Virus record (IMG/VR): IMGVR_UViG_3300042505_000794
Span: 1-64,000 of that record
Length of the DNA stretch: 64,000 nucleotides
Origin: a virus
Reading direction: 5' to 3' (one strand)
The position numbers were made by a program, and so were the translations under genes. The notes under the pieces are model-generated. The model was given only the letters and a program-made list of their open reading frames with translations. It was not told the DNA's origin and made no database searches. Of the stretch, positions 1,022-60,570 are shown piece after piece; the stretch's first letter is position 1, and every line of letters starts with the position of its first letter.

Positions 1022-1038
1022 TTAAAACTCCAAAATCT

Positions 1039-1536
1039 TTATAGAACGTTATTCCATTTTGTTAAATCATAAACAAATGGGTGATCGCATGTGAAGAATA
1101 TTTTTATATATTTTAATGAACCTATTTTAACAGGTGAATGAATATGTGTAAAATTAGGTACACTCGGATAAATCAATAACCTACCAACTTCAGGGTCTAA
1201 TGAAAATTTAAAATTGGTAAAAACGAGTGTTCCTCCATAAACGTCTGTAGCAGGATCAAAAGGTGGAACATTATTATAACTTACTAATGGTATATAACAT
1301 GAAAAATCATAGTTTGTAACTTTTATCCATTTACCTTTTAAGATACTATTATCACATCTAAGTCGTAAATCTGTTAATATCTCCGGTTTAGTATTTTCAA
1401 CTACCGTAACATTATAATATGTTTCTATGTAAGAAATAATTTGCGGTATTTTCTGATCAACAAATTCTAATACATTTGGTAATGAACATCGTAATGGCGA
1501 TATAAAATCATCAATCAGGATTATGGGTTTCTTCAT
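1039..1536 (-). CDS. 2OG-Fe(II) oxygenase-like protein
   Basis: A 165-residue protein beginning MKKPIILIDDF. I chose ATG at 1536 over an upstream in-frame TTG at 1545. The C-terminal half matches the prolyl-4-hydroxylase-like oxygenases common in T4-type phages: GGTLVFTN, then EVGRLLIYPS, then FTHIHSPVKIGSLKYIKIFF, that is the strand pattern around the distal iron-binding His and the Lys/Arg that binds 2-oxoglutarate. The proximal His-x-Asp motif is not obvious near SYNNVPPFD, so activity is uncertain. Family members hydroxylate protein or nucleic-acid substrates; the substrate here is unknown. The gene overlaps the protease gene upstream by 26 bases and is followed closely by gp5, so all three are probably co-transcribed late. 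A degenerate, inactive family member is the main alternative. Confidence 0.55.
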   Translation of the reverse strand: MKKPIILIDDFISPLRCSLPNVLEFVDQKIPQIISYIETYYNVTVVENTKPEILTDLRLRCDNSILKGKWIKVTNYDFSCYIPLVSYNNVPPFDPATDVYGGTLVFTNFKFSLDPEVGRLLIYPSVPNFTHIHSPVKIGSLKYIKIFFTCDHPFVYDLTKWNNVL

Positions 1537-1993
1537 GTGAATCAATGTTCAAATCCAAATGATTTAATAAATTCATACCTAATAAAATTTGATCTTCTAA
1601 ATCTGATCTATCATTAAGGTTAAATTGTACCTTACGTAATGTAGATCCTTTTACTTTGCAATTTAATTCAATTACAGGACGATCTTCTGAACCGTTTGAG
1701 GTCTGTATGTTCTGCATTCCTATGCATGCTGTACGGTAACGTCTACCGTTAATTGTAAATTCAACAAGCTCACCATCACATTTTATATCTGTAGCTCCTA
1801 ATGAACAGCATTGCGCTCCTGTGTCAATTTTCGCTTTAAATGGTTCAGTGCCAATTCCATAAATTTCGATTGGTATATGTAGCTTGCTAAACTCGTTAGG
1901 TTTGGTGTTTTCTTGTTCAGTTGTCTGTTCTTCAACAATTGGTTCAACAGTTGGTGTTTCAGGTCTATCAATATCAATTAATAACGTAGTCAT
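1511..1993 (-). CDS. Retropepsin-like aspartic protease (RimB/ATP-dependent zinc protease family)
   Basis: 160 residues. The core has the hallmark motif AKIDTGAQCCSLGA (catalytic Asp in DTGA), then a beta-rich stretch and ILLGMNLL near the C-terminus, the layout of single-domain retropepsin-like proteins (the family often annotated 'putative ATP-dependent zinc protease', RimB). The first 35 residues are Thr/Glu/Pro-rich and probably disordered. An upstream in-frame ATG at 2068 exists. I prefer ATG 1993 because a late-promoter-like octamer lies 26 bases upstream of it (2020-2027) and the longer version would run across both divergent promoters. Family enzymes trim protein tails as dimers. A role in virion protein maturation is possible but not shown. 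Confidence 0.65.
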   Translation of the reverse strand: MTTLLIDIDRPETPTVEPIVEEQTTEQENTKPNEFSKLHIPIEIYGIGTEPFKAKIDTGAQCCSLGATDIKCDGELVEFTINGRRYRTACIGMQNIQTSNGSEDRPVIELNCKVKGSTLRKVQFNLNDRSDLEDQILLGMNLLNHLDLNIDSHEETHNPD

Positions 1994-2019
1994 AAGTAAT
2001 CGTATAGTTTTAAAAGAAG

Positions 2020-2027
2020 TATTTAGT
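2020..2027 (-). promoter_or_regulatory. T4-type late promoter (ACTAAATA) for protease/oxygenase/gp5 operon
   Basis: Minus-strand octamer ACTAAATA, one or two bases from the T4 late consensus TATAAATA, 26 bases before the ATG at 1993. It is half of a divergent promoter pair with 2032-2039. Confidence 0.5.
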
Positions 2028-2031
2028 TCTG

Positions 2032-2039
2032 CATAAATA
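2032..2039 (+). promoter_or_regulatory. T4-type late promoter (CATAAATA)
   Basis: Octamer CATAAATA 29 bases before the ATG at 2069, followed by an AAGGAG ribosome binding site at 2053-2058. Divergent to the site at 2020-2027. Confidence 0.6.
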
Positions 2040-2068
2040 ATGGTATTGCTATAAGGAGTACCATACAT

Positions 2069-3175
2069 ATGAGATTTACTGATTTTTTACAGGAAGAAGC
2101 GGTCGCGGGTAGCGTAGGTACCTCAGCTGTAGCTGCGACTTACAATAAGATGGGCAGCTGTACACCTATTAAACGAGGTAGAGCTAAATCTAAAAAATTA
2201 AAAATAACTACCATTAAATTGGGTGAAAGTAATATGCCAGATTTCAACAGTTTTGACGTAAAGTCAAAAATGACAAATGCTGAACGTTCTGGAAAATTGA
2301 AAAAAGATTCTGCTGTTTACGGCATTGAAGATGAAGATGGTAATATCACAAAAGTATATGTTGATAAAAATCAAGAACATGATTTTAAGCATACACTAAG
2401 TAAAATGTTAAAAGATGAAGAAAAATTAGATGTTGCAGAAATCTTATTTGATTTACGTAATACGTTTAATATTTTGTTTGTTGAGTGGCCTAAGATGCTA
2501 GAAGATGAAGAAACAATTAATGTGCTCGATCAAAAAGACGGTGAACCTGGAGACGAACCTAAAGAAGGTGAACCGGGTGCGGAAGCACCAGCTGAACCTT
2601 TACCACCACCTGCACTTGAACCTGCTGCACCAGATTCAGAAAGTATTCTATTGAAAGTTATTGATATGCTTCGAGCTGATGCTGACGCTAAAAAAGCAGA
2701 AGCAACAGCAAGAGCAAAACAAGCGGAATCTGAAACCGCTAAATTCTCTGTTCAATTATCTAACATTAAAGTAAAGAATGAAGAAGATATGTTAAAAGCT
2801 GATGAATATTTTAAAAAACAATCAGAAGCTAAAAAAGATCAAGAACGTATTGCTAAATTAGCAAAATATAGAAATGAAGTAGTTAAAAACACCACATATG
2901 AGGCAGACATGTCATTTTTACAAACAATGCTTGATAGTCAAGCTATTGAACTTTCAGAAGAAGAAACTGTTTCAGAAGATTTGAATACCGAAGTACAACA
3001 AATTCAAACACAAATTGCTGATATTACTGCTCGTAAAATGCGAGCAACTAAAGTTTATGATGATCAGTTACGTTTACTTCAACAACGTTTAGCGTCGAAA
3101 ACAAAACAAGCTAATACTCAACAACAAGCTGATAGAGCTGATCAGGTACAACAACCAGCTCAACCTGTACAATAG
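2069..3175 (+). CDS. Late coiled-coil protein with gp23-like N-terminal cleavage region
   Basis: 368 residues, function not recognised. The N-terminus (MRFTDFLQE then EAVAGSVGTSAVA) resembles a T4 capsid-targeting sequence ending in an L-x-E site. It also closely matches the predicted cleavage region of this phage's major capsid protein (LSE then TASAGSVDTSAIA). Next comes a basic patch (KRGRAKSKKLK), a central Glu/Gly/Pro linker (about residues 157-188), and a long Ala/Lys/Glu/Gln coiled coil to the C-terminus, which ends in a Gln/Pro-rich tail. It has an AAGGAG site and a late promoter, and converges with the tape measure gene 3 bases away. It may be a prohead core or internal head protein processed by gp21. 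This is inference from the N-terminus and promoter only. Confidence 0.75.
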   Translation: MRFTDFLQEEAVAGSVGTSAVAATYNKMGSCTPIKRGRAKSKKLKITTIKLGESNMPDFNSFDVKSKMTNAERSGKLKKDSAVYGIEDEDGNITKVYVDKNQEHDFKHTLSKMLKDEEKLDVAEILFDLRNTFNILFVEWPKMLEDEETINVLDQKDGEPGDEPKEGEPGAEAPAEPLPPPALEPAAPDSESILLKVIDMLRADADAKKAEATARAKQAESETAKFSVQLSNIKVKNEEDMLKADEYFKKQSEAKKDQERIAKLAKYRNEVVKNTTYEADMSFLQTMLDSQAIELSEEETVSEDLNTEVQQIQTQIADITARKMRATKVYDDQLRLLQQRLASKTKQANTQQQADRADQVQQPAQPVQ

Positions 3176-3178
3176 TTG

Positions 3179-5929
3179 TTATTTAATTGTTGATGCGTCA
3201 GTTACCTTATTAGGTTCAATTATTGAGGTGATGGGATTGACTTGTTGGTATAGATCATACCAGTCATCTATCACCTTTTTTGTACCTGTTGAATTCGTAG
3301 ATATATTTCTTAAGAAATCTTGCATCGTGCTATTTTGCATTTCAACTGTTGTCATGTATTTTGTAAACATCTGATTGAAATCGGCAGCGTTATCAGTTGC
3401 TTCAGATTTATTTATTTGACCAGATGGTAAAGGACCAGTGAGTGGAGCTGATGGTTCTACAGTAGTTGTTGATTTTTGAGCTTCAGCCGCTTCAGGTTTC
3501 TTTTCATCGTCATCACCTGTAAATTTATCAATCGCGTATACACCTAGACCAGCTGCTGCTGTAGCAATCCAACCAGCAGGTGTAACTTTTGATAGTGGGT
3601 TAGCTATTACATCTATCAACGCAGTGCGAATAACAGTTGGTGCAAAACGTTTAAACAATGCAATGCCAGCAGCAGTAATACCTGCTTTTGTTGCAATATC
3701 ACTGTATAATCCTTCACCAGTAGTAGCATTAATTCCGCGCTGAGCTTGAGCCGCTTTAAGTGTAATTTCCTCTGCAGATTTATCGGTCTTACTTTCTGCT
3801 TGAGATTTCAGCATTTTTTGCAACTCTTCAAGTGTATCAGGTAATTTTTCACCGGTTATTCCATACTTACCGAGCGCTGTAAAAGAGTTAATTATTGCAT
3901 CTATAGGTCCACTCATTTTAGTTTGTTCAAGGTTCGAATCCAATAACGATATCATTTGCTGCAAAGAATAACCTGCTTGTGATCCATATTTTCTATCAAT
4001 CTCGTTTAACTTTGTCTGTGCATCAATTTTAAATTTAGCTATTTGAAAATCCATATCAGTCTTAAACTTAATTTCTTCAGGTGATAGAGGTACTTTTGCA
4101 GCTTGTAGTCGTTCAAGTTCAAGATATTTTTTCATCTTCTGTGTATCATCTAAACCGTAATTAGATATGTTTAGACCTGATAATGACGCAATACTTCTCA
4201 TATAATTGAAAGCAGTTTGTTCTTGCCCGATCTTAGATACTGTTTCACCAGCAGACATCATTTTATTAGTTGACGCTAGCATTGCGCGCATAAACTCGTT
4301 TAACGTGTCTTTAGTCATACCTAAGCTAGCACCCAATTCCATGGTTGTGGTGATAGCCTCCATTCTAGTTTTACGATCTTTTGCATTTAAACTAGCCATT
4401 ACTGCTTGATTCTCATTCGATTCTGCAAAATTCAAGTGCATCTCAGCAAGCTCGTCGTTATTCATTCTTGCAACTTTACCTAACACTTTAAATCTATCGA
4501 GTAAATTACCTATACCGGATTCTGTTGTATTGGATAAGTTAACAAGACCTTGCATCCTACTACCCATTTTAGAAATCATCATAGGGTCTGAACCAAATAC
4601 GCTTCTAAGCTGACTGTAACGTTCGTTCATGAATGTGTCTAGCTGATTTTGACCTTCTGCACTAGATATATTCCAAAAACTTTTATTTTCTCCACGTGAT
4701 TGTCTATACTCTTCTTCAGTTAATCTTAACTGCCAAGCCATTAACCGGTTAGTAGCAACGTTATCCCGTGTTAATGAATCATACTCACGAGTATAATGTT
4801 TTAAAACAATTAAACCGATCTCAGCAAGTTTAGGTACTATTATTGCGCCTAACTTACCAATAGATTCACTTATTAATTGTCCTGCTTCATCTCTACCTGT
4901 ACCACTTGTTAATGAACCAGTACGAGTTCGAATATCTCTTAATTCATCCAACAATTCATCAAAACCGTTACGGTTCTCATGCATATATCTATTAAATTGA
5001 CCTGTAAACGATTTATAATCTCGTTCAATAGTCGTAGATAACTTTTCGTTTGAATTGTTTATAGTTTCAGCGATTGTTACTTGTGCGTCAATTACCTTTT
5101 CTATTGTATCCTGTGCAAATTGTGTTGATGAACCTGCTGTGCGTCCTTCGATACGCGATTTTAATAAATCAAACTCAGTTGATACATATCCTAGAGAATT
5201 ACCCATCTCTACGTATCTTTTACCTAATTCAGCGTTGCTATCATCTAATGCGTTATTGTTACTGATCATTGATTGAATAAATTCAGATTGTGCATTCGCA
5301 AACTGAGCTACTCTTTCAACATCGGTCATTGTTAATAACTGCTTGCTAAATGTTCCAGCAACTTGACCCGCTATCGCATCAAGCGATGAACGGACTTCTG
5401 ATGCTAATTGTCTACCAAAGAAATCTTTTTCGTACTCATTTCTGTATTGAATTGCATCACGAGTTGATTGAACAATGTCGGTTATTATATTCAACGCATT
5501 GTTGTGAGCTGTGGACGCTCTTGATTGGTCTTCAGCTGCGGATGATAATATACTGTTTAAACTTGCTAACTGTGCTCGCTGTGCAGATGTCATTATTCCA
5601 CCTGCAGCTGAAATCATTCTATTAAAATTATCAAGATTGTCAGATGCGGTTTTATAATCGGTAGTTGTCTGCTGTATTTTTTTACTGTAATCGTTAATAT
5701 TCTTAAGCGTATCTTTAAACGCGTCTGTATTAGACTTCAGTGTTTTTGATAGCTTTTCGTAATCACCTATACTTGTAGTTTGTACTCTGGATAAATTAAC
5801 CGTAGAAGTAGCACTAGTTTGTTGTGCGTTGTTCAATGCTGATGAATATCTAGCCACTGAGCTGGCTGATTGTGCTAGCTGCGACAATGATTGTTGTAGT
5901 AATATTTGATCAGATGCTGATAATGCCAT
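3179..5929 (-). CDS. Tail tape measure protein (gp29 role)
   Basis: 916 residues, the right kind of protein for tail length control. The N-terminal two-thirds is helical, polar and Gln/Ser/Asn-rich with many coiled-coil stretches. Around residues 755-800 there are hydrophobic helices (AGITAAGIALF, AGWIATAAAGLGVYAI), as in tape measures that enter the host membrane at ejection. A low-complexity linker (KKPEAAEAQKSTTT) and a helical tail follow. T4 gp29 is 590 residues, so this tail could be longer, or the protein may carry extra domains. It is transcribed alone from a minus-strand late promoter at 5974-5981. Identification rests on architecture, size and closeness to hub gene 5, not on a diagnostic motif. 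Confidence 0.7.
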   Translation of the reverse strand: MALSASDQILLQQSLSQLAQSASSVARYSSALNNAQQTSATSTVNLSRVQTTSIGDYEKLSKTLKSNTDAFKDTLKNINDYSKKIQQTTTDYKTASDNLDNFNRMISAAGGIMTSAQRAQLASLNSILSSAAEDQSRASTAHNNALNIITDIVQSTRDAIQYRNEYEKDFFGRQLASEVRSSLDAIAGQVAGTFSKQLLTMTDVERVAQFANAQSEFIQSMISNNNALDDSNAELGKRYVEMGNSLGYVSTEFDLLKSRIEGRTAGSSTQFAQDTIEKVIDAQVTIAETINNSNEKLSTTIERDYKSFTGQFNRYMHENRNGFDELLDELRDIRTRTGSLTSGTGRDEAGQLISESIGKLGAIIVPKLAEIGLIVLKHYTREYDSLTRDNVATNRLMAWQLRLTEEEYRQSRGENKSFWNISSAEGQNQLDTFMNERYSQLRSVFGSDPMMISKMGSRMQGLVNLSNTTESGIGNLLDRFKVLGKVARMNNDELAEMHLNFAESNENQAVMASLNAKDRKTRMEAITTTMELGASLGMTKDTLNEFMRAMLASTNKMMSAGETVSKIGQEQTAFNYMRSIASLSGLNISNYGLDDTQKMKKYLELERLQAAKVPLSPEEIKFKTDMDFQIAKFKIDAQTKLNEIDRKYGSQAGYSLQQMISLLDSNLEQTKMSGPIDAIINSFTALGKYGITGEKLPDTLEELQKMLKSQAESKTDKSAEEITLKAAQAQRGINATTGEGLYSDIATKAGITAAGIALFKRFAPTVIRTALIDVIANPLSKVTPAGWIATAAAGLGVYAIDKFTGDDDEKKPEAAEAQKSTTTVEPSAPLTGPLPSGQINKSEATDNAADFNQMFTKYMTTVEMQNSTMQDFLRNISTNSTGTKKVIDDWYDLYQQVNPITSIIEPNKVTDASTIK

Positions 5930-5973
5930 AATTTTTAGTACTAATAGTTAGTTAACAAATAAGTATATTTCTC

Positions 5974-5981
5974 TATTTATC
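5974..5981 (-). promoter_or_regulatory. T4-type late promoter (GATAAATA) for the tape measure gene
   Basis: Minus-strand GATAAATA, 44 bases before the ATG at 5929, facing away from the plus-strand promoter at 6031. Confidence 0.55.
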
Positions 5982-6030
5982 TCAATTAGAATATACATGT
6001 TTTTATTAGTTTTTACGTGTGCACAGAAAG

Positions 6031-6042
6031 ACTAAATAAATA
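6031..6042 (+). promoter_or_regulatory. T4-type late promoter for gp67-like gene
   Basis: Overlapping ACTAAATA and AATAAATA octamers about 50-60 bases before the ATG at 6093. Confidence 0.5.
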
Positions 6043-6092
6043 ATAGATTTGGTACCTTATTAAAAACACTTGTGTTTAGGAGTTATAAACAA

Positions 6093-6458
6093 ATGACAAT
6101 TAAAGTAAAAGAAATCGTTGATGCTATCATTGCTGAAGATCTTGAAGCAGCTGCAGCTGCATTCCACGACCACGCTGTAAAGAAATTTCAAGATTTGTTA
6201 GAAGCTGAGTATGAAGATGATGAAGAAGCTGGTGATAAAATCCCAACTGACTCAACTGAATTAGATGATGAAGAAGACGAAGACGAAGACGACAGTGAGA
6301 TTGAACCTGAAGACGACGAAGACGACGAAGACGACGAAGAGTCTGATGAAGACGGCGACGAAGAAGACGAAGATTACAAACCACACGAAGACGAAAACGA
6401 AACTGATGATGATGAATATGGTTTCGATACCGATGAAGATGATGGCGATTTAAAATAA
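6093..6458 (+). CDS. 67: Prohead core protein, gp67-like, highly acidic
   Basis: 121 residues. ATG 6093 is chosen because AGGAG lies at 6078-6082; an upstream ATG at 6072 would put that site inside the gene. The N-terminal 35 residues (EIVDAIIAEDLEAAAAAF, then KKFQDLLEAEYED) match the helical start of T4 gp67. The rest is an almost unbroken Asp/Glu tract ending GFDTDEDDGDLK. In T4, gp67 is an essential scaffold component cut up by gp21 during head maturation; IIAE here is a likely cleavage site. T4 gp67 is about 80 residues, so the acidic tail is longer here. It is convergent with gp21, separated by two hairpins. Confidence 0.8.
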   Translation: MTIKVKEIVDAIIAEDLEAAAAAFHDHAVKKFQDLLEAEYEDDEEAGDKIPTDSTELDDEEDEDEDDSEIEPEDDEDDEDDEESDEDGDEEDEDYKPHEDENETDDDEYGFDTDEDDGDLK

Positions 6459-6478
6459 TCTAGATTATTTAAAGGTAG

Positions 6479-6510
6479 TAAAATTTCAAAACCTTCTTTT
6501 TGAAATTTTA
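6479..6510 (+). terminator. AT-rich hairpin after gp67
   Basis: Inverted repeat TAAAATTTCAAAA / TTTTGAAATTTTA with loop CCTTCT, just after the gp67-like stop codon. Confidence 0.5.
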
Positions 6511-6516
6511 AACAAA

Positions 6517-6546
6517 GAAAAGGGTGAAAATATTTTCACCCTTTTC
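6517..6546. terminator. Bidirectional terminator between gp67 and gp21
   Basis: A perfect 30-base palindrome, GAAAAGGGTGAAAAT and its complement, with A/T flanks. It sits between convergent genes and probably stops transcription both ways. Confidence 0.75.
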
Positions 6547-6553
6547 TAATGTC

Positions 6554-7195
6554 TTAACGACGCTTAGAAGTTACTTCGTCACGCAACATTTTCATAATCT
6601 CTTTTACTAGGTATTTTTGTGCAGCATCATCGTGTACTACCGATTCTGCTAATGTAATGATTTGCTGACCATTTTTAGCGCGTTCAATTGATTCATAAAT
6701 TGATGATGGGTAAGCACTTGAACAGCTAGGTGTACCAACTAAGTCAATTGTGACTAAGTTGAATCCACTAACGATACCACTTTCATTGACTTCACCAGCG
6801 CCTCTACTACTAACACCAATTTTCTTTTTACTTTCCGTCATTAATACTTTTGCAATATTTCCCATAGGTGTTGGTAAGATTTTAGCTTTACCGAATACCA
6901 TGTTACCTTCCATACGCAATTCAGTAATTTCATGACTTACACGGTCACTTGCTACTGTTAATGAAGGTGGATGATCTAATTCACCCCACACGCTACCTTC
7001 TTCTTGAATCATTTTGTTGAGTTGATCAACCGCACTTTTCATTTCTGTTAATGGGTAAATCCGACCGTTGCGATTACGAGTCTCTGCTTGCATAAAGCAA
7101 CCAGTTAAATATAAACCTTTACCGTCCATTGTCGCTTCTGTAAGCAAACTATTGTCCCCATTTGACATGGTTTCGATTAATAATTGTGAAGACAT
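6554..7195 (-). CDS. 21: Prohead core protease, gp21-like
   Basis: 213 residues, the same size as T4 gp21. The S80-family prohead protease motifs are present in order: ETRNRNGRIYP (about residues 38-48), WGELDHP with the catalytic His (about 70-76), the central beta-strands, KKIGVSSRGAG with the nucleophile Ser (about 124-134), and VTIDLVGTPSC (about 148-158). The enzyme cuts scaffold and capsid proteins at L/I-x-E sites inside the prohead; its likely substrates here are gp22, gp23, gp67 and possibly the proteins with matching N-termini noted elsewhere. In T4 it lies directly upstream of gene 22 on the same strand. Here it is about 14 kb away on the opposite strand, with its own late promoter. 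Confidence 0.93.
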   Translation of the reverse strand: MSSQLLIETMSNGDNSLLTEATMDGKGLYLTGCFMQAETRNRNGRIYPLTEMKSAVDQLNKMIQEEGSVWGELDHPPSLTVASDRVSHEITELRMEGNMVFGKAKILPTPMGNIAKVLMTESKKKIGVSSRGAGEVNESGIVSGFNLVTIDLVGTPSCSSAYPSSIYESIERAKNGQQIITLAESVVHDDAAQKYLVKEIMKMLRDEVTSKRR

Positions 7196-7226
7196 TGATA
7201 CCTCTTATATTAATATGTAATTATTA

Positions 7227-7234
7227 TATTTATA
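7227..7234 (-). promoter_or_regulatory. T4-type late promoter (exact TATAAATA) for gp21
   Basis: Exact consensus octamer on the minus strand, 31 bases before the ATG at 7195. Confidence 0.7.
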
Positions 7235-7381
7235 TCATAATATACGATACATATATCATTGGAGAATTGTGGAGATTAAATGACTAATGTTAAGGTAATA
7301 CCTATATCTAAATTGATATAGTCATTAAGGACCCATAAGGTAAACAAAGGGAAACCGATATTGATATACCGGTCTTCCTTA

Positions 7382-7612
7382 TTATTTGTATTGTTGACGT
7401 AAATTAGAAATATGCCTAATATGATGAGTTGTATGCAAAAAAGCATCATGCCATTTATCTTGGTTGTCGTAATACACAATACGTAACTCTGGTAGCTCAT
7501 TAACAGTACATATTAAACAATCGCCTTGGTCTTTGTTGTATTCCCAGTCAACGGTAATATTGAATACATATGTAAACAAGCCTCGTTGTAGTGTCCAAAT
7601 ATTTTTAAACAT
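7382..7612 (-). CDS. Small hypothetical protein downstream of gp52
   Basis: 76 residues, not recognised. It is aromatic-rich with ELRIVYYDNQDKWHDAFLHTTHHIRHI. Its start overlaps the end of the gp52 gene by 8 bases, the typical translational coupling of a phage operon, which is the main reason to call it real. An alternative ORF in another frame covers 7276-7500, but it is hydrophobic, badly placed and probably a shadow. The stretch 7276-7381 beyond the stop codon contains an imperfect inverted repeat around 7343-7380 that might end the minus-strand operon. Confidence 0.6.
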   Translation of the reverse strand: MFKNIWTLQRGLFTYVFNITVDWEYNKDQGDCLICTVNELPELRIVYYDNQDKWHDAFLHTTHHIRHISNLRQQYK

Positions 7613-8921
7613 CTAATGACTCAAGGTCTTTAATGTATAGTTTCACACAGTTTGTTTTATTTAACAATTCAATGTCTTTCGTCGTTTTATCGATTTGTGT
7701 TTCCAATTTAGAGATATCATCTTTTGTTAAATTGTAGATTCTAATATCCAACAATTTTGATATATTGACAAACCGATTATCAACAAGCAATTGTTCAAGT
7801 TCTTTTTTACTTTTATTTGCAATATCTTTTGAATGGTTTAAGTAAAATTCAATAAATCTACGTTTCTCAACCATCCATTCTAAATCAACTGTCAACAGTT
7901 CAATTAATTTTTTACGTCTTTCTTCGTATTTACCTAATCTAAACTCAACAAAATGTTCAATAATTTCCTGAACATCTTCGAATACTTTGATATGACCTGT
8001 TTCTGTCCATGCTGTTAAGTTCTGAGTATCTCTACTTGATAACTTAAATTTTGCGATAATTTCTTCGTGAGTTAGTTGAGTTGTAGCTCTAGGAACACTA
8101 ACAATAAAATCAAATGAAAGTTCTGTCGAGTTATTATCAAAATCTTTAATTAAGCCAGAATCTTGTAACTTAAATAAATGTTTTTTATAGTCATCCAGGT
8201 ACACACCAATTGGTAATTCCGTAATGCGTATAGTTGTAGAGTTTACAATTTCATAGCAACCTGTATTCGTTATTTGATTTTCAACAGCTGTAACTGTACC
8301 TTTAAACCCTCTATACCATGGTAAAATTGGATTAGGTGTTTGACGTTTTAAAATCGATACAATATTATCTCGAATTTCAAGTGGGTTATGTTTTAATATA
8401 TGTGTTGCATACCCTGTTCCCATACCTCTTGCGCCGTTTATTAGGATATTAGGTATAATAGGTAAATAGAAATCAGGTTCAATTTTATCACCATCTTCTT
8501 CTAGATAATTCAATATAATATCGTCTTCTTTTTTGAAGATTTTTCTAAATGAACTTGACAGTTCTGTAAAAATATACCGAGGTGCTGACGCTTCACTTGA
8601 TAATCTACTACCAAACTGACCATTAGGTTTAAGATAATTTAAATTGTTACTACCTGTATAGTCTTGAGCTAACCCAATTAATGTTTCATTTAAACTATTT
8701 TCTCCATGATGGTACTGAGATACAGCTGATACGTGTCCACTTAATTGTGCAACCTTTCCTTCACCAGCGTTTTCACCTCGTACAAGCATACCGTATATAC
8801 ATTTACGTTGCGATGGTTTAAATCCATCAATGACGGATGGAATAGACCTTACACAATCAGCAATTGAATATAATCTAAACTCATCATCAAAAAAAGTCTT
8901 TAATTTCATTGTATTTGTCAT
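7605..8921 (-). CDS. 52: DNA topoisomerase II medium subunit, gp52-like
   Basis: 438 residues, matching T4 gp52 (442). It is the DNA-cleaving (GyrA/ParC-like) subunit. The catalytic tyrosine is in SAPRYIFTEL (Tyr116), after the helix-turn-helix region FKPSQRKCIYGM and HHGENSLNETLIGLAQDY. A GyrA-type core with INGARGMGTGYATHI and a C-terminal coiled coil follow. With the gp39-type subunit it would relax and untangle phage DNA, supporting replication initiation. It lies 5 bases downstream of a small lipoprotein gene, within the gp39 operon. Confidence 0.95.
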   Translation of the reverse strand: MTNTMKLKTFFDDEFRLYSIADCVRSIPSVIDGFKPSQRKCIYGMLVRGENAGEGKVAQLSGHVSAVSQYHHGENSLNETLIGLAQDYTGSNNLNYLKPNGQFGSRLSSEASAPRYIFTELSSSFRKIFKKEDDIILNYLEEDGDKIEPDFYLPIIPNILINGARGMGTGYATHILKHNPLEIRDNIVSILKRQTPNPILPWYRGFKGTVTAVENQITNTGCYEIVNSTTIRITELPIGVYLDDYKKHLFKLQDSGLIKDFDNNSTELSFDFIVSVPRATTQLTHEEIIAKFKLSSRDTQNLTAWTETGHIKVFEDVQEIIEHFVEFRLGKYEERRKKLIELLTVDLEWMVEKRRFIEFYLNHSKDIANKSKKELEQLLVDNRFVNISKLLDIRIYNLTKDDISKLETQIDKTTKDIELLNKTNCVKLYIKDLESLDV

Positions 8922-8926
8922 ATTGG

Positions 8927-9091
8927 TTACCAGCTATGGAAATGATGATTGTATGGATCTGGATGTCTCAGATACGGGTTATGTAAGTTAGGACGAGGAT
9001 TATAATATCCGGAACCTCGGTAATAATTACCTGGTGTATTATATACTGTGCAACCATTTAACAACAAAGCTAATAAAATTATTTTTTTCAT
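8927..9091 (-). CDS. Small lipoprotein between the topoisomerase genes
   Basis: 54 residues, easily missed because of its size. It starts MKKIILLALLLNGC: a short positively charged, hydrophobic signal with lipobox LNGC, so Cys14 should be lipidated by host Lgt and the signal removed by LspA. The mature part is Tyr/Asn/Pro/His-rich (TVYNTPGNYYRGSGYYN, ending HHFHSW). The gene fits exactly between gp39 (stop at 9096) and gp52 (start at 8921), with AGGA just before the ATG. Short phage lipoproteins can be spanins (Rz1-like) or block superinfecting phages at the outer membrane. Co-expression with early replication genes favours superinfection exclusion or envelope change over lysis, but that is inference. 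Confidence 0.75.
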   Translation of the reverse strand: MKKIILLALLLNGCTVYNTPGNYYRGSGYYNPRPNLHNPYLRHPDPYNHHFHSW

Positions 9092-9095
9092 ATTC

Positions 9096-10976
9096 CTAAT
9101 CCAATAATGCCAACCAATCTTTACGTTTGTTTGTACTCAATTTACCATCCTCTTTACTGAAGGCCAGTTTAACTGCTTCGGTATCTTGAGAATCGTCAAT
9201 GGTGTACGGTATTAAACTCTCATCAAATTTTTCCATATATTCTTTGAACTCTTTTGAAGTACTTGTACCCAACCCTTTAAAATATTTTGATGTAAACTTT
9301 TTATTCGTTTTAGCCTTCCATGCTTTGAAATCTTCTTCTGTATAAAAATCGATGATATCTTTTCCTACTGTAACCTTTACTATTGGTGTTTTAAACTTGC
9401 ACACAAAACCTAATTTAAATAATTCTGGCCAAAAAGTATTGAATAAGTTAATTAGTAGTCCCGTAATATGTACTCCATCTGTGTCCGCATCTGTTAATAT
9501 TACTAATTTACCAAAACGTAATTGTGACAATGATTCAACTTTTTCCCCTAACTTTAACCCTGTAATTGTTAAAACATTTTTAAACACTTCGTTATCCATT
9601 AACTTTTTTGGGTCAATTGTAAGCACGTTTAATGGTTTACCTTTTAACGGGTATACAGCATGTAATTTTGGATCTCTACTATTAAGAATTGCCTTAGAGG
9701 CTGAATCCCCCTCAGTTAGCAGAATTGTGCACAAGCTACGATTTTTCTTTTCTGATGCATCTTCAAACTTATCAACTCTGATAGGATCTAACCGGTCGGT
9801 TGTCTTGTTTAATTTCCGCAACTCAGCTTGTAACAATGCATTTTCTTTAGCTTGAGCCCAATCTAAGATTGATTGAACTATACTTGATTTAACTACATGT
9901 TTGATAAATGCGTCAGTTACTTCAAAAGTAGTTCCAAAATTCTTAATCTCGGTAATCATATTCTCTTTTGTTTGACTATCGAACTTTGGTTTGTTAATTT
10001 CTGAATCGATAAACAAATTTAAATGGTTTTTAATTTCACTAGGTTTAACTTGAATACGATGTTTCTTTGCTATATATTCCCGTAATTTAGCAATGATTTG
10101 ATATGCTATATAATCGACATGTTGTCCACCGATCTTTGTTTCAACTGAGTTAACAAACGATACATGACTGAATGAACCATCACTTTTACTAACTCCAATT
10201 CTCCAATGATCATTACTATCAAAAACAAACTCATCTGTATACAGTTTAATATAGTCTTTGAATGAATTGATATGAATCTGGTCACCATTCAAGTACACTT
10301 TTAATTTTGGATTACATCCAGCTACGTCGTAAACACGCTTAACAATTTTATCATAATCACCGTCAGTCATATCTGTTGGTAATTTTAATTTTTCGTAATC
10401 TAATTTATAAGTTATTTTTGTAAATTTATCTTTTGATTTTTTAATAACAGGTTTAGATTTAGTACGTGAGTTATCAGTGTGTTCTTGTTGGAATGAATTT
10501 TTTCCATCTGCAGTTTGAACAATAAACGATGTTGAGAAAATGTTAGTTAAACTTGCACCTTCGCCGTGCGTACCACCTAATTTTGATTCAGCTTGCTCTT
10601 CATCATTAAAATTAGAACCAGATCGTAATTCAAAAATCATTTCAGGTATATATTGATCATGTTCTTTATGTTTTACAACTGGAATACCACCATTGTCGTA
10701 AATAGAAATAACATTGGTATCTCTACAAATATCAACCTTAATTGTAGTAACATGTGATCCAGCTTCAGTTTTACTATGATCAACTGAGTTAGTAATAATC
10801 TCATCAAATAATTTTAAAACGCCCGGTACATATGTTGTTTCGCGTTTTTCAAATTTATCATCGATTATTAAAAACTCTTCCGATGTGTGAGATACTGTAC
10901 TCCCAATATACCTACCAGGTCTTATTAGTACGTGTTCTACCTCATCTAACTTTTTATATTTTTGTTCTATGCTCAT
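9096..10976 (-). CDS. 39: DNA topoisomerase II large subunit, gp39/gp60 fusion
   Basis: 626 residues covering both the ATPase and TOPRIM parts that T4 itself splits between gp39 and gp60. GHKL ATPase motifs are at the N-terminus (FDEIITNSVDHS, IYDNGGIPV, GGTHGEGASLTN). The TOPRIM motifs are LLTEGDSASKA (about residue 416) and ILTDADTDGVHI (about 497), followed by the type II signature region KYFKGLGTSTSKEFKEY. The enzyme uses ATP to pass one duplex through another. It is the first gene of the minus-strand operon 39, lipoprotein, 52, small ORF. A sigma70-like promoter is proposed upstream at 11098-11126. No intein or mobile insertion is seen in it. Confidence 0.95.
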   Translation of the reverse strand: MSIEQKYKKLDEVEHVLIRPGRYIGSTVSHTSEEFLIIDDKFEKRETTYVPGVLKLFDEIITNSVDHSKTEAGSHVTTIKVDICRDTNVISIYDNGGIPVVKHKEHDQYIPEMIFELRSGSNFNDEEQAESKLGGTHGEGASLTNIFSTSFIVQTADGKNSFQQEHTDNSRTKSKPVIKKSKDKFTKITYKLDYEKLKLPTDMTDGDYDKIVKRVYDVAGCNPKLKVYLNGDQIHINSFKDYIKLYTDEFVFDSNDHWRIGVSKSDGSFSHVSFVNSVETKIGGQHVDYIAYQIIAKLREYIAKKHRIQVKPSEIKNHLNLFIDSEINKPKFDSQTKENMITEIKNFGTTFEVTDAFIKHVVKSSIVQSILDWAQAKENALLQAELRKLNKTTDRLDPIRVDKFEDASEKKNRSLCTILLTEGDSASKAILNSRDPKLHAVYPLKGKPLNVLTIDPKKLMDNEVFKNVLTITGLKLGEKVESLSQLRFGKLVILTDADTDGVHITGLLINLFNTFWPELFKLGFVCKFKTPIVKVTVGKDIIDFYTEEDFKAWKAKTNKKFTSKYFKGLGTSTSKEFKEYMEKFDESLIPYTIDDSQDTEAVKLAFSKEDGKLSTNKRKDWLALLD

Positions 10977-56552: not shown

Positions 56553-56978
56553 ATGGATAAAGATTATATAGAACATCCTTTTGAACAGATGTTCGAGATT
56601 GAACCAGGTACCACCATATTACATAAACCGGATTATGATGACAACGGTATGGTTTTATACGATCAGTACGATGAAAAAGAGCAAGAGATTGAAGCTCAAT
56701 ATCAAACAATCTATACAGCTGCATTCGCAGCATTTACAGATCAAGTAATGTCTACACAACGAGGTGAGAACCCCGGAATGTACGGTAAGAACTTAGAAGC
56801 AGCTGCTAAATTTTTATCAACAGCTTTAGATGCAGTTAAAGAAAAAGCTGAACTTAAACATAAAAAAGATAAAACAATTACTAAAACTGTTACAGCTACT
56901 AATGTTACAAATAATAATTTAATTATGGATCGTGAAGATCTTATTAAAATGTTACAAGGTAAAGCACTAGATGGCTAA
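56553..56978 (+). CDS. 16: Small terminase subunit, gp16-like
   Basis: 141 residues (T4 gp16 is 164). An acidic N-terminus (PDYDDNGMVLYDQYDEKEQEIEAQY) is followed by a central coiled coil (TIYTAAFAAFTDQVMSTQR, FLSTALDAVKEKAELKHKK) that forms the oligomeric ring, and a short end LIMDREDLIKMLQG. It recognises DNA and activates the large subunit. It overlaps the start of gp17 by 8 bases, the usual arrangement. Confidence 0.85.
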   Translation: MDKDYIEHPFEQMFEIEPGTTILHKPDYDDNGMVLYDQYDEKEQEIEAQYQTIYTAAFAAFTDQVMSTQRGENPGMYGKNLEAAAKFLSTALDAVKEKAELKHKKDKTITKTVTATNVTNNNLIMDREDLIKMLQGKALDG

Positions 56979-57570
56979 AAATACAAGATTAAAAATGCCG
57001 GGTCCTCCGGAAGAGTTTACACCTGACCAAGCATTAGAGTATTTGAAATGTTTGCAGGATCCAGTATACTTTATTGAAACTTATTGTAAGATTACTCACC
57101 CTACTAGAGGTATGGTAGGTTTCAAATTATATGATTTTCAACGTGAATTAGTAAATTCATTTCATCAAAATAGATCATCAATCGTATGTGCTAGTAGACA
57201 GGTAGGTAAATCTCAAACATCATGTGGTTTCTTATTATGGTATGCATGCTTTAATTCACATAAAGAAATCTTAATCATATCTAATAAAGCAAAAAGCGCT
57301 AAAGATATGGTAAAACGTATCGTGTTTATGTACGAGAATTTACCTAATTGGATTAAACCAGCTATCAATCCAAATAACTGGAATAAGTTAGAAATTGAGT
57401 TTGCTAATAAAAATCGAATTGTATCAGAATCAACAACAGATCAGAGTGGACGGGGTATGTCCGTATCCTTACTGTTCTGCTTAGGTGGCAATACAAAGGT
57501 AACAATACGCAATAAACAAACCGGTCAAATTGAACATGTAAGCATGGAAGAATTGTATGATAGAATGTAA
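56971..57570 (+). CDS. 17: Large terminase gp17, N-terminal piece fused to split-intein N-half
   Basis: 199 residues. Residues 1-169 are the start of the packaging ATPase: FKLYDFQRELV (adenine-binding region), the Walker A-type loop ASRQVGKSQTS (74-84), and the beginning of Walker B, SVSLLF (164-169). At Cys170 the sequence switches to an intein N-terminus and stops after 30 residues. The Walker B acidic pair DE resumes exactly at the first extein residues of the gene at 58744. Trans-splicing would therefore restore SLLFCDEFAFV. This is not a simple frameshift, because a complete endonuclease gene lies between the pieces and both junctions are intein motifs. Confidence 0.93.
   Translation: MAKNTRLKMPGPPEEFTPDQALEYLKCLQDPVYFIETYCKITHPTRGMVGFKLYDFQRELVNSFHQNRSSIVCASRQVGKSQTSCGFLLWYACFNSHKEILIISNKAKSAKDMVKRIVFMYENLPNWIKPAINPNNWNKLEIEFANKNRIVSESTTDQSGRGMSVSLLFCLGGNTKVTIRNKQTGQIEHVSMEELYDRM
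57478..57567 (+). other. Split intein N-half (30 residues) in terminase
   Basis: Begins with Cys (CLGGNTKVTIRNK) and ends in EELYDRM before TAA. Cys1 plus G-N/D-T/S-x-V is intein block A. The very short length matches the atypically split TerL inteins such as AceL-TerL, whose N-half is about 25 residues. Confidence 0.9.
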
Positions 57571-58747
57571 TCGTATTAGTTATGCACCGGGTACATCATA
57601 CCCAGATATATTTTTAGATAACAAGTATGCAAAAGTATATTTCAAATTAGTACATTATCGATTGTTAACTCCAGCTACCGATGGTCATATTGAAAAACAT
57701 CATATTATTCCAAAATCGTTAAATGGTGCAAATTGTGGGCTAAATATTGTGTCTTTATCTATACGTGAGCATTTATTTTGTCATAAAATACTACTAAAAA
57801 TGATGACTTCTAAAAAAGGATATCATAAAATGTGTAGAGCAGCTTTGTTCATGTATGGAAAGTTTAAATGTTCTACTAATACAAAATTTACTGCAGTGTT
57901 AATAGCATCATTAAAATGCACTGCTCGTGAAATGTTAATTGAACGTAACCAAACGACTAACCGTGACCCTGAAAAAATTCGTAAAACCGCTGAATTTCAC
58001 CGAGGTAGGAAAAGACTTGAATCAACAAGAGCTAAAATATCAGATAAACTTAAACGCTCTATTGAGAAACGTGGTCATGGTTATTCTAAAAACTCTAAAT
58101 CGTATTACAATCCGTTAAATCCAAATGAAACAAAACTTTGTTTTACAGATGATGATATACCTAAAGGTTGGGTTCTAGGAAACCCTAAAATAAAAGGGCT
58201 TGTTAGTTATTTTGACCCTGCTACAAATGTAACAAAAAGATTTGTAGCGGGTTCACAACCTAATACTTGGGTTAAGGGAAGTCCCGCTACTAGAAATAAA
58301 TCTCATTACTTTAACGTTCATACCGGTAAAAGAGCACGGTTCCAACCAGGTACAGAACCAGAAGGTTGGTCAAAGGTATTACCAAAACCAAAAATTGAAA
58401 AACAATCAAGACGTAAAATAACATATTTTAACCCACTCAATTTTAAAGATACCTTAGTGTGTTTAGAAGGTTTAGGACCTGAAGGTTGGATCTCATATAA
58501 AGAGAAAAACCTTAAACAACTTGATACGTATTACGACCCGAATGATTATTCTCGTAACGGCGTGTATTCTCCTTATACAGCTCCAGATGGTTGGGTAATA
58601 ATTAAATCAAATAAAGGTTCAAAAAAATATATTAACACGGTAACCGGTGAATCAAAAAGATTTGGTATACATGATGCAGTTCCTGCTAATTGGAAGATGT
58701 GGTCATGGGCTGCCAATTCTGATAAAAGTAAATGGAAGGCAGCATGA
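57557..58747 (+). CDS. HNH homing endonuclease between the two terminase halves
   Basis: 396 residues. The HNH core is GHIEKHHIIPKSLNG, then NIVSLSIREHLFCHKILLK (about 44-78). A Lys/Arg-rich linker with a NUMOD-like RGRKRLESTRAKISDKLKRS follows. Next come six repeats of the form Y-(F/Y)-(D/N)-P ... GW (YYNPLNPNETKLCF, YFDPATNVTKRF, YFNVHTGKRARF, YFNPLNFKDTL, YYDPNDYSRNG, YINTVTGESKRF), probably DNA-binding modules. It overlaps the intein N-half gene by 14 bases and the C-half start by 4 (ATGA), and has GGAAG upstream of its ATG. It probably spreads the fractured intein locus by cutting intein-free terminase genes. Confidence 0.9.
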   Translation: MIECNRISYAPGTSYPDIFLDNKYAKVYFKLVHYRLLTPATDGHIEKHHIIPKSLNGANCGLNIVSLSIREHLFCHKILLKMMTSKKGYHKMCRAALFMYGKFKCSTNTKFTAVLIASLKCTAREMLIERNQTTNRDPEKIRKTAEFHRGRKRLESTRAKISDKLKRSIEKRGHGYSKNSKSYYNPLNPNETKLCFTDDDIPKGWVLGNPKIKGLVSYFDPATNVTKRFVAGSQPNTWVKGSPATRNKSHYFNVHTGKRARFQPGTEPEGWSKVLPKPKIEKQSRRKITYFNPLNFKDTLVCLEGLGPEGWISYKEKNLKQLDTYYDPNDYSRNGVYSPYTAPDGWVIIKSNKGSKKYINTVTGESKRFGIHDAVPANWKMWSWAANSDKSKWKAA

Positions 58748-59073
58748 ACGTTAAACAAAATACAGAATGGGAAATTTTAACTCCGGACGGGTTTAAAGAT
58801 TTTAATGGTATATCTAAAACATATAAAAAACTTCAAAAAATCTATATTCAAGGTCATGATCCTATTTGGGCCTCTAAAAAACATTATTTCTATGTAGGTG
58901 GGCGTAAAACTAGAGTATCAGATCTTAAGAAATCAGGTTATATTGATTCAGTAGAAGGACCTAAACGGTATCGAAAAACAACCGTTTTTGAAAAACAGCA
59001 TGCGTACGACATTATTGAAGTTAAACAAGAGAATCATCAATATCTTGTAAATGGTTGTTTTACAACAAAAAAT
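58744..59073 (+). other. Split intein C-half (110 residues)
   Basis: Begins MNVKQNTEWEILTPDGFKDF and ends YLVNGCFTTKN before extein Cys. TPDGF-x-x-FNGI resembles AceL-type C-halves. The usual penultimate His is Lys (TTKN), which may slow or alter Asn cyclisation. Confidence 0.88.
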
Positions 59074-60570
59074 TGCGATGAGTTTGCGTTCGTTGAGCCA
59101 AATATAGCTGAAGATTTTTGGACCTCAATTTCTCCTACATTATCAACAGGTGGTAGTTGTATTATTGCTAGTACACCAAATGGTGATGATAATAAATTTG
59201 CTGAATTATGGAGAGGAGCTAACCTTAATAATAATGGGTTTGTTCCGTTCTTTGTGCAGTGGGATACTGTACCAGGTCGGGACGAAACATATAAACAACA
59301 AGAGATTGGTAAAATCGGACTTCAAAAATGGGAACAAGAATATGAATGTTTGCGTGGTGATAGTTTAGTTAATTTATTAATCGATAACAAAGAACGTATT
59401 GTTACAATTGAAAAATTACATCAGTTGTCAGCAGTAAACCACCATAACTATTTACACAAAAACACGTTAGATTATAAAATTAAAACACCTAATGGGTGGG
59501 AATCTTTTGCAGGTGTAGCTTTAATGGGTACAAAACCCGTCAAAGTTTTAACATTCGATGATGGTACCAATATTAGCGGTACAGATAATCATATTTTATT
59601 TACTTCAGATAATGTAGAAATTCTTTTAAAAGATGTAGCAATCGGTACTACATTACGTGGTAAATCTAATAAGACGGTTGTAAATATTTCCAACGGTGAG
59701 ATAGAAAAAGTGTATGATGTTATTGAAACAGAATCTCATACGTTTTATGCTAATGATATTTTATCTCATAATTGTAAGTTTATTTCTTCTGATCCATTAT
59801 TGTTTAGTTCTACGTACATAACAAACTATTATTGCGATACTAAGGCTGAACCAGATGCAAGAGATATAACCTGGTTCGATAAAATTACACCTGGTATGAG
59901 TTATGTAATAGCTATTGACCCAGCATCAGGTACAGGATCAGATTACACTGTTATGATTGTATACAGTTTTCCTGAATTAAATCAAATTGCTCAGTTTAGG
60001 TCAAATACCACATCTACACCTTTAGTGTACAACACATTTAAACACATCTTGCGTACTATTCAAGCAGGTGGTGCAGAAAATTGCTATTGGAGTTTTGAAA
60101 ATAATGGTATAGGTGAAGGTTTGATTAGTATGTATGAATCAGATGAAAAACCTATTGAGTTCGGTGATCTAATTTCTGAACCTGGTAAACGACGCATCGG
60201 GTTCTTTACTGGTAAAAATAAAACTAATGTTTGTTTGCTGTTCAAACAGATATTCGAATCAGGTAAAATGACGATTAAATCACCTACAGTTATTTCTGAG
60301 ATGAAAAATTTTGTTAGACGTAGTGGATCTTTTTCTGCTCGTACCGGTAGTAACGATGATACAATATCTGCTCATCTTATTCTCGTTCGTATGTTACAAG
60401 AGTTAGTACAATATGAAGAACGTGCATACGATGTTGTGTTCCAACATAAAGAAGGTGAAGATATCTTTAACGATGATGATTATGACGATTATGAACCACC
60501 TTTACCTGTGTTTGGTAACAATGGTGGACATGACATTAATTTTGATCAGTTTTTTACTGATGGTTGGTAA
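58744..60570 (+). CDS. 17: Large terminase gp17, C-terminal piece: split-intein C-half, ATPase, second intein, nuclease
   Basis: 608 residues from ATG 58744, coupled to the endonuclease stop (an in-frame ATG at 58732 is less likely). Order: intein C-half (110 residues) to Asn at 59071-59073; extein CDEFAFVEPNIAEDFW...IIASTPNG (Walker B completion and coupling motif); a contiguous 142-residue intein after EYE; then the extein from CKFISSDPLLFSS. The RNase H-like nuclease has its acidic residues in VIAIDPASGTGSDYT, SFENNGIGEG and SNDDTISAHL. The tail is Asp-rich and ends QFFTDGW. After both splicing events the joined terminase would be 525 residues, against 610 in T4. It pumps DNA into the head and cuts it at the end. 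Confidence 0.93.
   Translation: MNVKQNTEWEILTPDGFKDFNGISKTYKKLQKIYIQGHDPIWASKKHYFYVGGRKTRVSDLKKSGYIDSVEGPKRYRKTTVFEKQHAYDIIEVKQENHQYLVNGCFTTKNCDEFAFVEPNIAEDFWTSISPTLSTGGSCIIASTPNGDDNKFAELWRGANLNNNGFVPFFVQWDTVPGRDETYKQQEIGKIGLQKWEQEYECLRGDSLVNLLIDNKERIVTIEKLHQLSAVNHHNYLHKNTLDYKIKTPNGWESFAGVALMGTKPVKVLTFDDGTNISGTDNHILFTSDNVEILLKDVAIGTTLRGKSNKTVVNISNGEIEKVYDVIETESHTFYANDILSHNCKFISSDPLLFSSTYITNYYCDTKAEPDARDITWFDKITPGMSYVIAIDPASGTGSDYTVMIVYSFPELNQIAQFRSNTTSTPLVYNTFKHILRTIQAGGAENCYWSFENNGIGEGLISMYESDEKPIEFGDLISEPGKRRIGFFTGKNKTNVCLLFKQIFESGKMTIKSPTVISEMKNFVRRSGSFSARTGSNDDTISAHLILVRMLQELVQYEERAYDVVFQHKEGEDIFNDDDYDDYEPPLPVFGNNGGHDINFDQFFTDGW
59347..59772 (+). other. Contiguous mini-intein (142 residues) in terminase
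   Basis: Begins CLRGDSLVNLLI and ends YDVIETESHTFYANDILSHN, followed by extein Cys (CKFISSD). Block B-like SGTDNHILF and the F/G end (SHTFYANDILSHN, with penultimate His) are intact. There is no endonuclease domain. Removing it joins WEQEYE to CKFISSDPLLF. Confidence 0.92.

Follow-up and report, generated by a model that had tools for sequence, protein, structure and literature searches.

The large terminase (TerL, encoded by terL) is the packaging ATPase required for DNA packaging by tailed phages of the type considered here. Fractured genes, in which a host gene is broken by a split intein and a free-standing endonuclease lies between the halves, were reportedly described by Dassa et al. 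in 2009. Here we analyse a 64,000-nucleotide window (positions 1 to 64,000 of the IMG/VR virus record IMGVR_UViG_3300042505_000794, itself 79 kb long) from a virus of bacteria in which this packaging-motor gene is in two pieces, separated by an HNH endonuclease gene. Several related arrangements have been reported: atypically split inteins occur in large terminases (AceL-TerL, 25/104 residues; GOS-TerL, 37/115; Cat-TerL, 30/104; PMC11766414), other TerL inteins have been described (PMC3868846, PMC8228797), a Campylobacter terL carries both an intein and an intron (PMC3322345), group I introns break terL into 2-3 fragments (PMC12363816), and the DNA polymerase B gene (PolB) of Pseudomonas phage MIJ3 holds a split intein with an HNH open reading frame (ORF) between its halves (PMC6892783). 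Fractured genes, atypically split TerL inteins and HNH genes between split halves are already known, and the three-site, multi-piece terminase family to which the window leads is more surprising than the window locus itself. Coordinates are positions in the window unless another record is named, and L-numbers denote related viral loci or contigs from our survey. We call the insertion codon of the window, directly before the Walker B DE, site a, and the position of a second intein in the C-terminal terminase piece (TerL-C) site b.

The upstream piece (TerL-N, whole gene 56971-57570, stop codon at 57568-57570) ends in ...MSVSLLF-CLGGNTKVTIRNKQTGQIEHVSMEELYDRM (hyphens within sequences mark splice junctions or insertion points), the 30-residue tail being the N-terminal part of an intein (IntN). 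The downstream piece opens with the C-terminal part of the intein (IntC), which meets the extein as YLVNGCFTTKN-CDEFAFVEP, and its start that fits the relatives is the ATG at 58744 (the mechanically listed ORF starts at 58732). Joining the exteins gives SVSLLF-CDEFAF, which restores the Walker B motif (LLFCDE), and the predicted spliced junction peptide at site a is SVSLLFCDEFAFVEP. As in fractured genes, a free-standing endonuclease gene sits between the two pieces, sharing 14 bp with TerL-N and 4 bp (ATGA) with TerL-C. The flanks are of the T4 type by Pfam, PHROG and PDB matches (for the N-extein, Terminase_6N above the cut-off and phrog_5989 at E 7e-56), the middle extein is 93% identical to that of sister phages, and a small terminase-like gene lies directly upstream, overlapping the terL start by 8 bp (Table 1). 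The first-pass annotation of this DNA had described the two-gene terL, the 30-residue tail, both overlaps and the restored Walker B motif, all of which are found in the sequence. It had also given the length of the product correctly as 525 residues (169 + 91 + 265), a figure reached only when both inteins (30 + 110 and 142 residues) are removed, including the contiguous one at 59347-59772 that it had not mentioned.

Table 1. Features of the window locus and of the multi-piece terL loci compared with it.
Record	Feature	Position	Strand	Evidence
Window	Small terminase-like gene	56553..56978	+	phrog_445 terminase small subunit, 2.4e-5
Window	TerL N-extein, 169 residues, N-terminal ATPase half, P-loop SRQVGKS, ends SVSLLF	56971..57477	+	Terminase_6N, phrog_5989
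Window	IntN, 30 residues, Cys1, fused to TerL-N	57478..57567	+	IntN profile, E 1.1e-9
Window	Shine-Dalgarno-like GGAAGAA, 4 bp before HNH start	57546..57552	+	read in sequence
Window	HNH endonuclease ORF, 396 residues	57557..58747	+	phrog_655 homing endonuclease, E 1e-26
Window	Shine-Dalgarno-like GGAAGG, 4 bp before TerL-C ATG 58744	58734..58739	+	read in sequence
Window	IntC, 110 residues	58744..59073	+	profile, AlphaFold2 model, Foldseek
Window	TerL middle extein, 91 residues, begins CDEFAFVEP	59074..59346	+	phmmer match to T4 gp17 structures 3ezk, 3cpe
Window	Second, contiguous intein, 142 residues, C1 ... SHN-C	59347..59772	+	CatC 4.7e-9; TIGR01445/TIGR01443 weak
Window	TerL C-extein, 265 residues, RNaseH-like nuclease domain	59773..60567	+	Pfam Terminase_6C, 6e-9
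L122 (2 contigs)	Four-gene terL	2839-7830
L127 (2 contigs)	Four-gene terL	2298-5671
L249/L250 (2 contigs)	Four-gene terL	5762-10673 (L249)
L269 (1 contig)	Four-gene terL	373-5438
SCTP-2 (MF360958)	terL gene gp534	429356-429748
SCTP-2 (MF360958)	terL gene gp267	256428-257321
SCTP-2 (MF360958)	terL gene gp224	215993-218077

The identification of the two tails as intein halves rests on profiles built from 40 IntN and 22 IntC sequences, all from other phages and with the window left out, which were searched against the full six-frame translation of the window (1,515 peptides). The IntN profile has its sole real match in the TerL-N tail (E 1.1e-9, the next best being 0.029), and the IntC profile matches residues 9-116 of the TerL-C ORF (independent E 4e-32) and, second, the contiguous site-b intein (2.6e-18), with nothing below E 2.7 elsewhere among these peptides. 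Since profiles that never saw the window match just these places, the intein halves are not a chance resemblance. Against the PDB, a 17-sequence IntC profile (window included) finds CatC best (1.9e-12), followed by DnaE (1.2e-5), gp41-1 (1.3e-4) and VidaL (7.6e-4). The AlphaFold2 model of the window IntC (predicted local distance difference test score, pLDDT, 92.9) is predicted to have the HINT fold: all 24 PDB matches found by Foldseek at E<=0.001 are inteins, with TM-scores (query) of about 0.8 to gp41-1, CatC and VidaL. Block F (ENHQYLVNG) and the C-terminus TKN are recognizable in the IntC, and the class 1 residues are present (C1, a block-B-like SKKH with the invariant His, N110 and C+1). 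The division into 30 + 110 residues, with block B inside IntC, is that of atypically split inteins.

On this evidence we consider it very probable that the locus is, as a whole, a fractured terL assembled through a trans-splicing split intein and spread by homing of its HNH gene. The TerL-N-IntN protein (199 residues) and the IntC-TerL-C protein (608 residues from ATG 58744) would be translated separately and then associate, IntN as a short strand and IntC as the longer part of a complete HINT intein. Class 1 trans-splicing (through Cys1, Cys+1 and Asn cyclisation with Lys before the Asn) would join SVSLLF to CDEFAF, the contiguous second intein in TerL-C would splice in cis, and the final product would be the 525-residue TerL. 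The HNH protein would most likely be a homing endonuclease that carries, or once carried, the split element into terL alleles lacking an intein.

An endonuclease in a terL gap could also belong to a group I RNA intron, with the coding tails being incidental, and introns do split other terL genes, such as those of the Jug phages (PMC12363816). We regard such an intron as extremely unlikely here, however: Rfam gives no match at the locus at E<=1, bar a sub-threshold sR2 snoRNA match in the middle extein, and none at the gathering level in six related multi-piece, cis or split loci, whereas the tails are significant intein halves and the overlapping ORFs leave no room for a ribozyme.

The splicing at this locus is something that we infer, as are the cutting of an empty site a by the HNH protein and the co-expression of the three proteins. 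Several observations weigh against trans-splicing and homing. Block B has Ser in place of Thr (SKKH), and the usual (not universal) penultimate His is replaced by Lys, a clade-wide replacement; His substitutions can slow Asn cyclisation. The HNH protein differs from the endonuclease family usual at site a and its AlphaFold2 model is poor (pLDDT 43, discarded). Additionally, the site-a intein of the window stands on a long branch, with 41% as its closest identity, and no near copy of it was found. The penultimate Lys had been pointed out in the first-pass annotation; it is present, yet not peculiar to this locus, since Lys109-Asn110 is invariant in 17/17 aligned homologues. It is therefore a trait of the clade, and decay of the window intein as its explanation was ruled out.

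Scanning of viral contigs, followed by annotation of their TerL segments with profiles, yielded 49 non-redundant inteins at exactly the site-a codon of the window; among GTDB genomes the IntC profile picked up no relative. The IntC tree separates clades by their C-termini, namely (T/S)KN-C (24, window included), SHQ-C (23) and SSN-C (2), and the N-terminal partner is conserved in each split case. Most of the 49 have an endonuclease gene in the gap of a fractured terL, those split without an endonuclease include L097, L100, L127, L132 and L184, and two (L104 and L150) are contiguous, so distributed that the tree requires at least 10 changes among the three states. The coincidence of a fractured gene with an atypical split, put forward earlier as a further case, is thus true of the window but shared by most of its same-site relatives; what sets the window apart among them is its unrelated HNH gene and its contiguous site-b intein. 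The gaps of L141/L142, which have no long ORF, were left unclassed, and pairwise IntN identities were set aside, since the alignments are so short that free end gaps inflate them. We did not count the apparent breaks of L033 and L053, where the C-terminal part is interrupted but lacks intein ends, or the 'cis21' forms of L186/L191, which are short insertions at the P-loop.

This recurrence also bears on the quality of the sequence. The window is one metagenomic contig and no independent copy of its exact locus was found, which would suit an assembly chimera or sequencing artefact; nevertheless, dozens of independent assemblies show this anatomy at this insertion codon and no piece contains a frameshift or stop, which makes the chance of an artefact negligible.

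The site-a family is under purifying selection in its inteins and its endonuclease alike, with median pairwise ratios of nonsynonymous to synonymous substitution (dN/dS) of 0.13 for IntN, 0.155 for IntC and 0.17 for the endonuclease, next to 0.08 for the exteins. These values matter for the possibility that the two TerL pieces assemble non-covalently and unspliced, their intein-like ends being relics, for which an endonuclease-split phage ribonucleotide reductase, reported in work cited within PMC10448857, is a precedent. We hold this to be very unlikely, because IntN, IntC and the +1 Cys are all kept across the same-site family under purifying selection, the break falls inside Walker B, directly before the catalytic DE, and the cis forms of the same intein (L104, L150) make sense only if splicing works.

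That site a is the target of a mobile element is indicated by intein-less alleles at the exact codon. In L003-L005, whose TerL is 93% identical to that of the window, site a is uninterrupted (SLLF-ADEFAFVEP); L006 (91% identical) is likewise empty (SLLF-ADEF), and L007 (61-69% identity) reads SLLFCDEF without interruption. The dip in identity around site a, looked at as a possible co-conversion tract, is slight (0.80 against a mean of 0.87). At site b, L003-L005 carry a fractured intein: its IntN has 32 residues, its endonuclease has 301 with an HNH-like motif at the end, and its IntC closely resembles the C-terminal part of the contiguous intein that the window has there, which itself matches CatC (4.7e-9) and, weakly and below their cut-offs, TIGR01445 and TIGR01443. 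Phages of one group therefore differ both in the occupancy of site a and in the state of site b (split or contiguous). The site-b linker of the window has no significant similarity to the ends of the sister-phage endonuclease (77/500 and 371/500 shuffles were as good), so that neither direction of the change at site b is favoured; a scan with the window site-b intein found no relative. Site a lies about 91 extein codons upstream of site b, which is presumably the AceL-type site, given the CEFLG C-extein of AceL-TerL.

Signs of mobility and of changes between split and contiguous forms are also found within the site-a family. In L171/L177 the inteins are nearly identical (synonymous divergence, dS, 0.03-0.10) while the terL flanks have a dS of 1.0-1.3, which points to a recent transfer. 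The contiguous intein of L150 and the split intein of L166, which has an endonuclease, match exactly in their IntN DNA and to about 99% in IntC, and upstream the two terL genes are 85% identical. L150 lacks the endonuclease gene; instead, a short inverted duplication forms the junction and still includes the leader and the ATG from the former IntC gene. Most simply, a split form healed to a contiguous one, the reverse (insertion into a contiguous form) being conceivable as a less simple course.

The survey further suggests that some relatives build the TerL motor from three or four separately made pieces. Besides site a, inteins of related phages occupy the P-loop (GK-C...HN-T/S) and site b. 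Three-gene terL loci numbered 12 non-redundant cases in a first survey (L100, L108, L114, L116, L129, L132, L145, L146, L153, L155, L157 and L180), and four-gene terL was found in four lineages on seven contigs (Table 1), with the genes directly following one another and one split intein each at the P-loop, the Walker B region and site b. In these four-gene loci every break lies between an IntN tail on one piece and a leading IntC on the next, with Cys1 and with Asn or Gln preceding the +1 residue; in L249/L250 the site-a-type break lies a few residues upstream of the codon used in the window. In L127 almost no endonuclease remains, which indicates that fractures persist after their endonucleases are gone. 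Within one phage the IntC parts of different sites are 25-36% identical, against means across phages of 44-45% within sites a and W and 38% within site b.

In nine contigs TerL was found in pieces only, among them the 79 kb of the window and contigs of 178, 151, 88, 86 and 58 kb. The same holds for Salicola phage SCTP-2 (MF360958, complete, 440 kb), where only three dispersed pieces with intein ends were found (Table 1); the IntN of its gp267 is over-long and seems to repeat the block B that gp224 already has. In the complete genome of Campylobacter phage PC5 (KX229736) the terL halves lie 26 kb apart on opposite strands (99273-99989, + strand, and 72400-73728, - strand), with split-intein ends at the junctions IDE-C...SHN-C; the PC5 genome paper mentions an intein only in the ribonucleotide reductase of PC14. 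These genomes help to judge whether the window locus is a decayed or non-functional copy, with a working terminase elsewhere. The 79-kb record is not known to be complete, and to this extent such a copy could be accommodated; we nonetheless find it highly improbable, as no intact or second TerL was found in that record (completeness not established), every ORF of the locus is intact with ribosome-site-like sequences, and the complete SCTP-2 genome showed TerL only as dispersed pieces. Both findings that the first-pass annotation had named as fatal to it, an uninterrupted terminase elsewhere and pieces without an intein-profile match, failed to appear, and its central proposal of a fractured terL with an atypically split intein at Walker B and an HNH gene in the gap is backed by profile, structural and comparative evidence.

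Taken jointly, inteins and fractures in T4-type terminases rather likely form a reversible three-site system of which the window is one state. Mutually diverged, site-specific split inteins would break terL at the P-loop (K-T), at Walker B (before DE) and at a third site; the breaks would outlast the loss of their endonucleases, could heal to contiguous inteins, and would accumulate until one essential ATPase is made as three or four separately translated proteins, with up to three trans-splicing reactions assembling TerL while avoiding mispairing.

Other genes in these phages show related features. An IntC of the P-loop type also precedes the Walker A Thr/Ser of other phage ATPases (L219, L230, L274, L248, L256 and others), which by a look at their sequences are gp46/SbcC-like and DnaB-like helicase proteins, and a gp46-like gene with such an IntC is found together with a three-piece terL on one 151-kb contig. 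Upstream of the fractured terL, L172 (3620-4426), L155 (3262-4080) and L188 (879-2271) have a second TerL-like gene, ATPase-only (about 230-270 residues), without nuclease domain and without intein.

Regarding the endonucleases, that of the window has an N-terminal HNH motif (EKHHIIP...NIVSL...REHLFCH), with HNH residues shared with L086 and L012, and a C-terminal half of about six GW-type repeats. The usual site-a gap endonucleases share one N-terminal domain (DYIVCPVSxxRLSM, 33/40), mostly joined to an HNH or a Vsr-like C-domain (the latter label being a motif reading only), and the window HNH is the outlier; a profile comparison of the site-a nuclease domain with the PDB gave no significant match. 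The GW-type repeats (about 35 residues, in tandem), seen in the C-terminal half of window 57557-58744, in L132 (2570-3388) and in L153 (1925-2803), are joined in terL gaps to either HNH or GIY-YIG-like nuclease domains and are probably DNA-binding modules. In L012 (2847-4885) the intein is contiguous and lies 3 residues upstream of site a; within its linker, in another frame, is an HNH ORF (3517-4209) related to that of the window. Site-b gap endonucleases (L004, L108, L114, L146) have their own common N-terminal domain (YCxxNGxFxRHL), joined to differing nuclease domains (HNH, or DUF7487/PD-(D/E)XK-like), resembling the swap at site a.

If the motor is indeed built by trans-splicing, each infection depends on splicing, which would put strong pressure on it to be fast and specific. 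Among natural products of protein trans-splicing, the three- and four-piece terminases would be the most fragmented that we could find; our incomplete coverage of the literature yielded no natural protein that requires two or three such reactions, and we claim no priority. These terminases offer split inteins with very short N-parts that must work side by side in one cell, sets which could be useful for protein engineering, while the Lys-Asn and Gln C-termini shared by whole clades represent natural variation in the splicing active site. Additionally, the split and contiguous pairs L166/L150 and L004/window (site b) make intein splitting and re-fusion directly testable.

Compared with the described systems, the window shares with fractured genes the split intein and the free-standing endonuclease in its gap, and differs in the atypical split (30-residue IntN), the position at Walker B of terL and the HNH with GW repeats. 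With AceL-, GOS- and Cat-TerL it has in common the large-terminase host, an IntN of about 30 and an IntC of about 110 residues, whereas its insertion codon (site a, before the Walker B DE) and its penultimate Lys are different. The MIJ3 PolB likewise has an HNH gene within the split-intein gap of an essential phage gene, but there the gene is a DNA polymerase B, the first intein residue is Ser1 and the N-part is long, with blocks A to N4. In Aeromonas phage PX29 (GenBank GU396103), whose depositors annotated gp17A with an N-intein and gp17B with a GIY-YIG domain and a C-intein, terL is also split into an N-intein piece and an endonuclease/C-intein piece; the split is at site b, however, and the GIY-YIG endonuclease is fused to IntC. 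SCTP-2 uses the same codon as the window, a C-part of its gp534/gp267/gp224 set ending exactly before CDEFAF, but its three genes are scattered over 440 kb, with an extra P-loop split and the C-terminus VSQ.

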